Of a stretch of 64,000 nucleotides of DNA, positions 29,349-32,184 are shown piece after piece (the first letter of the stretch is position 1; each line of letters starts with the position of its first letter). The notes beneath the pieces were generated by a model that made no database searches, had not been told where the DNA came from, and saw only the letters and a program-made list of their open reading frames with translations. This DNA is from Candidatus Palauibacter scopulicola (lineage in GTDB: Bacteria; Gemmatimonadota; Gemmatimonadetes; Palauibacterales; Palauibacteraceae). A program made the translations under genes and the position numbers. The DNA is taken from assembly GCF_947581915.1 (NCBI RefSeq), contig NZ_CANPWG010000046.1:1-64000 (forward strand). Reading direction: 5' to 3'.

Positions 29349-29445
29349 TGAAACGCCTCCCCCCGAGTCTCGGTGCACACTCAGCGGACTCCGGAGAAGC
29401 GACGCCCTGGGAACTGCAGCTGCCGTGCAAGAAGCGCGGCGGGCG

Positions 29446-29560
29446 ACTCATCTACCAACGGATTACATCCGTCGCAGGAGTTGGCACATCAGTGGAAGAG
29501 CCACCTTCCACAGGTTGCCCCGGTGTCGTCGGGCCTGTCCCTCGACCGGTCTCGATGAGC
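29446..29560 (-). promoter_or_regulatory. SAM-I (S-box) riboswitch upstream of ask-asd-metY
   Basis: Minus-strand RNA: P1 strand CTCATC (29559-29554) pairs with GATGAG at the 3' end near 29447. Between them lie the SAM-I core blocks CGAGGGACAGGCCCGA, GGGGCAACC and GTGCCAACTCC in the correct order and spacing, with a variable P3 and P4. It sits about 97 nt before the aspartokinase start. Expected action: SAM binding turns off the operon. The mechanism is not fixed; the region before the start holds a strong GGGGGGAGG site that could be sequestered. Confidence 0.93.
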
Positions 29561-29680
29561 GTTGAGGCGCGGAGGCTACAGGGTCGTGGGCAGCGCGTCA
29601 AGTTTTGCGAGAGAAACCGGCGAGAAGCGGCCGCGCGCGTTTGTTGACGCGTGTGGCCGAAGCCGGCAGGTTCGGCCGCT

Positions 29681-29804
29681 ACTCATCGAGACCGGCTGAG
29701 GGACGGGCCCTTTGAAGCCGGGGCAACCGGGGCACGCGCGGTCACGCGCATGCCCAGCGGTGCCAACTCCTGCGGATCCCCGAACACGGGTCCGAGAGAT
29801 GAGC
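29681..29804 (+). promoter_or_regulatory. SAM-I (S-box) riboswitch upstream of metX
   Basis: Plus-strand RNA with P1 CTCATC (29682-29687) and GATGAG (29798-29803). Core blocks: GAGGGACGGGCCC, TGAAGCC with GGGGCAACC, and GGTGCCAACTCC, all in SAM-I order. A GC-rich P3/P4 arm includes CACGCGCGGTCACGCGC. The element ends about 80 nt before the TTG/ATG starts of metX, and GGACGGAGGAA just before the TTG could be the regulated ribosome-binding site. Confidence 0.94.
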
Positions 29805-29883
29805 GTCGGACTCCCCACGGGTCGGTCGGCTGCTCCGGAGTTGGCGTCGCGAACCACAGACGCGAGCCAGGACGGAGGAACCG

Positions 29884-30797
29884 ATTGAACGCCGTACTGC
29901 CGGAAGGCCGGAGGGGGACCGTCGCGATGCCGGCGGAGTGGAGCCCGGAACTGGAGGCCGGGATCGACGCCCGCTTCCGAGTGCGCTACGAACTCGCCGG
30001 ACCCGAGGGCGCCCCGCTGCTCGTCGCGATGGGCGGGATCTCCGCCGACCGTCACGTCTGCGCCAACGCCCTGGATCCCGCGCCCGGCTGGTGGAGGAAG
30101 CTGGCGGGCCCGGGCCTCGCCATCGATACGAACCGCTGGCGGCTGCTCGCGGTCGACTTCCTCGGATCTCCGGGAACGTTCGAGTCCAGGGAGACGTTCG
30201 AGCCCACAGGGTCCTCCGACCCTTCCATGGGCTCCTCACCGGATCGGATTCATCTCACGCCCGCAGACCAGGCGGACGCCGTCACCGTCGCGCTGCGCCA
30301 CCTCGGCGTCGAACGCGCCCACCGCATGCTGGGCGCCTCGATTGAACGCCGTACTGCCGGAAGGCCGGAGGGGGACCGTCGCGATGCCGGCGGAGTGGAG
30401 CCCGGAACTGGAGGCCGGGATCGACGCCCGCTTCCGAGTGCGCTACGAACTCGCCGGACCCGAGGGCGCCCCGCTGCTCGTCGCGATGGGCGGGATCTCC
30501 GCCGACCGTCACGTCTGCGCCAACGCCCTGGATCCCGCGCCCGGCTGGTGGAGGAAGCTGGCGGGCCCGGGCCTCGCCATCGATACGAACCGCTGGCGGC
30601 TGCTCGCGGTCGACTTCCTCGGATCTCCGGGAACGTTCGAGTCCAGGGAGACGTTCGAGCCCACAGGGTCCTCCGACCCTTCCATGGGCTCCTCACCGGA
30701 TCGGATTCATCTCACGCCCGCAGACCAGGCGGACGCCGTCACCGTCGCGCTGCGCCACCTCGGCGTCGAACGCGCCCACCGCATGCTGGGCGCCTCG
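29884..30797. repeat. Exact 457-bp tandem duplication of the 5' half of metX
   Basis: Bases 29884-30340 and 30341-30797 read as identical, with a 2-bp CG microhomology at the junction. Each copy contains the TTG, the internal GGAGGGGG site and ATG, and codons up to the GAS of the nucleophile elbow. The unit is not a multiple of three, so reading through from copy 1 is frameshifted in copy 2. Confidence 0.92.
29885..30340 (+). pseudogene. metX' copy 1, truncated by tandem duplication
   Basis: First copy of the metX 5' region, directly behind the SAM-I riboswitch and with the GGAGGAA site before the TTG at 29885. Translation from here gives about 152 correct residues, ending at GAS, and then runs out of frame through copy 2 and into 31585. 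It lacks the catalytic Asp and His, so the product would be inactive. Confidence 0.8.
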
Positions 30798-31524: not shown

Positions 31525-32184
31525 CTACGAGTCGGATGGGGGGATGGCGGCGACGACCTCGGCCGGTTCGCCTCGGACGGTGTAGTCGGGGTCGGCGGAG
31601 ACGTAGACGATCGTTCCGGCGCGGTCGATGACGAAGGTGGCCGTCAGCGGGAGTTCCCAGGACTCGTCGCCGTTGAAGCGCGCGAGGTCGATGCCGAGTC
31701 CGTCGCGGTAGAGCGTTCGCAGGTCGCCGTCGACGGTGAACGTCAGGCCGTAGTCGCGCGCCACGCCCAGCCCGAAGTCGAGCAGGACATCGAACTCGAT
31801 GCCGTCCTCCTCGATCCACCCGCGGGCGAATTCTGGAAGCTGGGGAGAAAGCGTGACGAGGCGAGCCCCCTTGGCCGTGATCTCGGGAAGAACCGATTGA
31901 AGAGCAGCCTGCTCTTCGCGACAGTACGGTCACCACCGGCCCCGGAAGAAGCTGAGCACCACCGGCCCCCGCTTGAGGAGCGTCGCGAGCCGGACCGTGG
32001 GGCCGGCCACGCTCGGCCGCGCGAACAGCGGCGCCCGGTCGCCCACTCCCGGGATTCGGTCGAGGATCCCGGAACTCCGCAGCGCCTCCGTCCCTGCGGC
32101 CATGACCGCGGTCGCGGCGGCGGGGCGCACGGCCTCCTTCTCGGCACGGATCCCGGCGAGTCGCCGGTTGAGCGGCCCGCTCAC
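31525..32184 (-). CDS. Peroxiredoxin-like (AhpC/TSA family) selenoprotein, in-frame UGA
   Basis: 219 codons from a GTG at 32184 that overlaps the stop of the upstream carboxylesterase (GTGA). Codon 85 (31930-31932) is TGA, in frame with a perfectly continuous AhpC/TSA-like protein on both sides. Before it comes VGDRAPLFARPS, RGPVVLSFFRGRW; after it PYC, then LPEITAKGARLVTLSPQLPEF, FGLGVARDYGLTFTVDG and LPLTATFVIDRAGTIVYV. Family members read RGxWCPYC here, so the UGA replaces the first Cys of CxxC, giving UPYC. A hairpin with SECIS features starts 12 nt after the UGA. Read as selenocysteine, the enzyme would be a peroxide or thiol-disulfide oxidoreductase. Otherwise it is a nonsense-mutated gene. 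Confidence 0.82.
31899..31917 (-). promoter_or_regulatory. SECIS-like hairpin after the UGA codon
   Basis: On the mRNA, GAAGAGCA pairs perfectly over 8 bp with UGCUCUUC around the loop GGC. It starts 12 nt and its loop begins 20 nt after UGA, and the loop begins with G; published bacterial SECIS rules call for a loop 16-37 nt downstream with a G in its first two positions. It lies inside the coding sequence, as bacterial SECIS elements do. Confidence 0.75.

Follow-up and report, generated by a model that had tools for sequence, protein, structure and literature searches.

The window, a stretch of 64,000 nucleotides from Candidatus Palauibacter scopulicola, carries on its minus strand at positions 31525–32184 a predicted gene for a peroxiredoxin (Prx)-like selenoprotein of 219 amino acids with selenocysteine (Sec) at position 85, as judged from its translation, the Pfam family PF00578 and the ATG start found in relatives. 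The frame begins with GTG (32184–32182) and ends with TAG (31527–31525), and its sole interruption is the TGA at codon 85 of 219 (31930–31932, minus strand), the putative Sec codon of W-U-P-Y-C, after which 134 sense codons follow. This single frame of AhpC/TSA type, broken only by the TGA, had been proposed from the letters of the DNA and is confirmed by translation and by Pfam: the AhpC/TSA domain PF00578 covers residues 47–194 and thereby both sides of the TGA (E-value 1.9e-24), and its score of 86.4 bits against a gathering score of 26 places the protein in this family. The plus strand of the same interval was also translated and holds no such protein. The GTG start is supported by the ATG that occupies the homologous start codon in two relatives (L024 and L030). 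Downstream of the TGA, the TGT codon at 31921–31923 (minus strand) encodes C88; as the protein has no other cysteine, C88 probably pairs with Sec85. A candidate SECIS hairpin with an 8-bp stem and the loop GGC lies at 31899–31917 (minus strand). Upstream, a carboxylesterase gene (PF00135; 32181–33720, minus strand, 5′ boundary approximate) overlaps with its TGA stop the GTG start in the sequence GTGA. The window and the relatives L021 and L022 have this overlap, L024 and L025 do not; the translational coupling suggested by the sequence-only reading is plausible here but not conserved in all relatives. Standard annotation would truncate the Prx-like gene at codon 84 or overlook it altogether.

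Elsewhere in the window, an exact 300-nt direct repeat (29882–30181 and 30339–30638) is located at the start of an alpha/beta hydrolase (metX-like) gene, and since relatives have a single copy it either arose by duplication not long ago or is an artefact of assembly. SAM riboswitches (RF00162) in divergent orientation, two in number, at 29445–29561 (minus strand, 73.9 bits) and 29680–29805 (plus strand, 79.0 bits) adjoin likely methionine-pathway genes.

The predicted structure of the Prx-like protein (pLDDT 94.8, based on an alignment of 22 sequences) shows a peroxiredoxin fold behind a helical N-terminal part. The best matches in the PDB are AhpE and Bcp by fold (Z about 20, rmsd 1.7–2.0 over about 150 residues), and Bcp/PrxQ and ResA-type oxidoreductases by sequence. 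In a profile alignment to Bcp/PrxQ, U85 falls on the Thr of PxxxTxxC and C88 on its peroxidatic Cys, and this alignment, together with AhpE and Bcp as closest folds, would suit a Sec-containing true peroxidase in which C88 attacks the peroxide and Sec85 acts as resolving residue. However, the PxxxTxxC/U motif of peroxiredoxins proper is not found, as the protein reads R81-G-R-W-U85-P-Y-C88, i.e., RxxxUxxC with Arg81 in place of Pro and Sec in place of Thr. Moreover, none of the aligned members has an Arg before the T-F-V-I-D strand, a stretch in which peroxiredoxins carry their catalytic Arg and which here reads LPLTATFVID, and the nucleophile of a UxxC motif is normally its first residue. A true peroxidase is therefore unlikely, although it is the alternative that keeps the most weight. 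With RxxxUxxC standing in for PxxxTxxC and no cysteine besides C88, the protein is most likely an oxidoreductase of the thiol/disulfide type with a U85–C88 selenenylsulfide and not a true peroxiredoxin. The term peroxiredoxin-like, which had been applied to the gene before, holds for the fold; as the catalytic residues of peroxiredoxins are absent (the PxxxTxxC motif and the Arg), it describes the fold only.

The nearest database neighbours are metagenome-assembled genomes of Ca. Palauibacter (Gemmatimonadota), the closest being 96% identical. Homologues were scanned in 149 relatives and then in 395 Gemmatimonadota genomes at a threshold of E ≤ 1e-25, with the condition that a match covers codon 85. 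In both sets every site-covering match contains a TGA, down to 41% identity, and homologues at this threshold occur in 41 of the 395 genomes, none of the site-covering ones with the Cys form at position 85. One match without TGA (in G003) ends at a contig edge ahead of codon 85 and was not counted as covering, and a Gemmatimonadota match without a stop (in G087) turned out to be a TlpA/ResA-like protein with WCLAC, hence no Cys orthologue. The TGA is found exactly at position 85 in all Gemmatimonadota loci examined (L021–L033 and L067–L096), over a range of identity from 96% to 42%, and position 88 is Cys in all loci read at residue level. Homologues with Cys at position 85 (WCPYC, with the codon TGC) come from Desulfobacterota, Alphaproteobacteria, Chloroflexota, Bacillota and Myxococcota and were found only outside the Gemmatimonadota. 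To the question raised beforehand, whether relatives have Cys or UGA at this position, the answer is UGA in the sister genomes and Cys only further away; with UGA at the same codon in sister genomes, the gene is therefore neither a lone disrupted allele nor the product of a sequencing error. The gene thus shows what marks bacterial selenoproteins, i.e., UGA where homologues have Cys, flanked on both sides by conserved coding sequence. On the tree, 38 UGA rows and 13 Cys rows need 2 state changes (shuffled mean 11.8), and the UGA rows fall into a main group with 35 members and a minor one with three (L093–L095), which is placed among long branches with an unsure position; the tree leaves open the direction of the UGA/Cys change. 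These data suggest a Sec-only clade of Prx-like oxidoreductases within the Gemmatimonadota genomes searched, which would be a new detail.

The evolution of the codons past the UGA bears on the reading that the TGA is a real stop, i.e., that the locus is a pseudogene, carries a sequencing error or encodes a functional protein of 84 residues followed by dead sequence. TGA does end genes in the usual way in this DNA, as in the carboxylesterase gene directly upstream. Nevertheless, tens of genomes that were assembled separately share the TGA of codon 85, the sequence past it matches the AhpC/TSA profile to the profile's end, and codons 13–125 past the UGA show dN/dS values of 0.03–0.12 compared with close relatives at synonymous distances of 0.28–0.51. 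This indicates purifying selection, which is most simply explained if translation continues past the UGA and yields a functional protein, and a real stop at codon 85 has next to no probability.

The machinery for Sec insertion, for which a search of the genome had been recommended, was found to be complete. The window's own genome encodes a tRNA-Sec (79.7 bits, anticodon UCA; ARAGORN: tca) as well as selA (484.7 bits), selB (370.5 bits) and selD (366.1 bits), all above curated cut-offs, and selA, selB, selC and selD thus occur in one genome with the Prx-like gene. Of the 149 relatives, 117 have a tRNA-Sec match; in this set, two UGA carriers (G016 and G118) lack a listed tRNA-Sec match, and both have selA.

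The hairpin GAAGAGCA-GGC-TGCTCTTC (31917–31899) begins 12 nt past the TGA and occurs once in the window; its 8-bp stem and its GGC loop 20 nt after the UGA are present as the sequence-only reading had described them, on the minus strand, which that reading had not named. A recent model of the bacterial SECIS element demands a loop of 3–9 nt with a G in its first two positions, a stem of 4–16 bp, a distance of 16–37 nt from the UGA and an MFE ≤ −7.5 (PMC13188914), and GAAGAGCA-GGC-UGCUCUUC fits this model with a 3-nt loop starting with GG, 8 bp and 20 nt. The folding energy is −9.5 kcal/mol for the hairpin alone and −13.6 kcal/mol for the 48-nt region, the latter being not exceptional compared with shuffles (z −1.2). 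As energy alone is not decisive, synonymous recoding was used as a test, and it reaches the observed helix in 0–0.15% of trials for those main-group UGA members in which the loop-closing pair is formed. The core GAGCA/UGCUC is kept at constant spacing throughout the main UGA group and uses rare codons, namely GCT for Ala (10 of 327) and CTT for Leu (7 of 218), each making up about 3% of the codons for its amino acid in six window genes. The specificity of the hairpin accordingly follows from its conservation at fixed spacing and from the rare codons and not from its folding energy. In a set of 28 distinct UGA sequences, paired cells make up 84.4%, compared with 79% after shuffling (0 of 500 shuffles as high), and two-sided changes occur at pairs 17–33 and 23–27. 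The support from covariation is modest, because three pairs of the core are invariant and shuffles yield as many pairs that change on both sides. The hairpin is therefore conserved across homologues as expected for a SECIS element, with exceptions: in the UGA members L075 and L087 the closing pair is A-C, leaving a stem of 7 or 4 bp, and in L031 and several other UGA members the stem has only 5 bp. A similar 8-bp hairpin is located at the SECIS position in Cys-type homologues of Pseudovibrio (L039:3095–3712 and L042:4042–4659), and a search for tRNA-Sec in both genomes found none. Part of the hairpin may hence reflect the encoded amino acids; the Pseudovibrio hairpin may equally be a fossil SECIS or a coincidence of coding.

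Hairpin and machinery also speak against TGA being reassigned, e.g., to Trp or Cys, or read through unspecifically without a SECIS element: such a code would keep the frame open, but UGA acts as stop immediately upstream, W84 already supplies the conserved Trp while homologues have Cys at 85, the Sec machinery is complete and the hairpin past the UGA is kept and uses rare codons, which makes this reading extremely improbable. Readings as stop, error, pseudogene or code change are ruled out by the conservation, the dN/dS values and the Sec machinery.

In the Ca. Palauibacter gene the in-frame UGA is thus almost certainly read as Sec in a redox active site. With high confidence, the gene can be regarded as encoding a selenoprotein of 219 residues that combines the peroxiredoxin (AhpC/TSA) fold with the redox motif UxxC, in which SelB and the hairpin direct Sec to UGA 85 and which probably undergoes a Sec85–Cys88 cycle. 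The basis consists of the frame, the conservation of the UGA and of the SECIS element, the Sec machinery, the purifying selection, the predicted fold and the single Cys, from which we infer Sec insertion itself, the redox cycle, the substrate and the reductant. In the proposed mechanism, SelD and SelA would make the charged Sec-tRNA-Sec, and SelB carrying it would bind during translation to the hairpin, 20 nt past the UGA, and so bring Sec to codon 85. In the folded protein, Sec85 would occupy the position of the first Cys in the CxxC of its Cys homologues, and C88 would follow three residues later. The nucleophile is probably Sec85, and its oxidised substrate would be a disulfide or perhaps a peroxide, whereupon an internal Sec85–Cys88 selenenylsulfide would form, which a thioredoxin- or glutathione-type reductant may then reset.

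At least five other candidate selenoproteins are suggested by the sequence of the same genome, their conservation having been examined less deeply than that of the Prx-like gene. A second AhpC/TSA paralogue (L145, G000:C13:34800–35700; L128) has WUPYC with an in-frame UGA and a hairpin after it and is probably secreted or a lipoprotein, given its signal-like N-terminus; a comparable second match with a TGA occurs in many relatives. The selD gene (L146/L018, G000:C30:54584–55510) has its own in-frame UGA, in GAG-U-ACK, and a strong hairpin of −25.9 kcal/mol behind it, and a further AhpC/TSA protein (L137, G000:C31:217–612) has one in RTRG-U-TVQ. Finally, two OsmC-like candidates with an in-frame UGA in ATGG-U (L148, G000:C38:28083–28364, and L149, G000:C21:137439–137729) resemble known OsmC-like selenoproteins with UxxT.

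If correct, this reading indicates selenium use by uncultured marine and sponge-associated bacteria, and UGA in one phylum compared with Cys in others offers a clean clade in which to study the retention or replacement of Sec. The literature searched holds no description of selenium use in Palauibacterales or of a Gemmatimonadota selenoproteome, and a search for papers about Palauibacter and about selenocysteine in Gemmatimonadota returned nothing on the Prx-like gene; the description of the Palauibacterales does not mention selenium (PMC10469786). We consider it somewhat probable that the Prx-like subfamily is obligately selenium-dependent across the Gemmatimonadota and belongs to an undescribed selenoproteome which includes SelD, the UxxC paralogue, the two OsmC-like proteins and the further AhpC/TSA protein.

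Among known systems, SelL is likewise a Prx-like redox protein of the Trx fold with Sec in the same motif region. The motif of SelL is UxxU, in contrast to UxxC here with Cys at position 88 in all members, and the SelL model NF040769 scores 30.3 bits against a cut-off of 120, so that an identity with SelL was rejected. Sec-containing peroxiredoxins (TxxU, PF00578) have the fold in common with the Palauibacter protein but differ in that Sec is located here at the first and not at the last motif position and in that the Pro and Thr of peroxiredoxins are absent. The peroxiredoxin-like protein cd02970 (PMC13188914) is also of AhpC/TSA type with Sec at the first motif position and is set apart by its motif, which is UxxS there and UxxC here. 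As the sequence-only reading had stated, bacterial Prx-like selenoproteins with UxxC do exist, and their record in marine metagenomes goes back to 2005: 22 sequences from the Sargasso Sea were described as 'Prx-like protein' (PMC1088965), 225 sequences in GOS as 'Prx-like 1' with PF00578 (PMC2398784), and a 2026 review lists the Prx-like thiol:disulfide oxidoreductases with UxxC as a class predicted with high confidence (PMC13188914). The Palauibacter protein has the UxxC motif of this class in W-U-P-Y-C and shares with its published members PF00578, UxxC in place of TxxU, a bacterial SECIS element, the marine origin and a distant similarity to peroxiredoxins (PMC1088965; PMC2398784; PMC13188914). 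It differs from them in the helical N-terminal part of about 45 residues and in that the present branch is Sec-only in the Gemmatimonadota genomes searched. By domain and motif, the Palauibacter gene is a further member or branch of the known Prx-like selenoproteins with UxxC.
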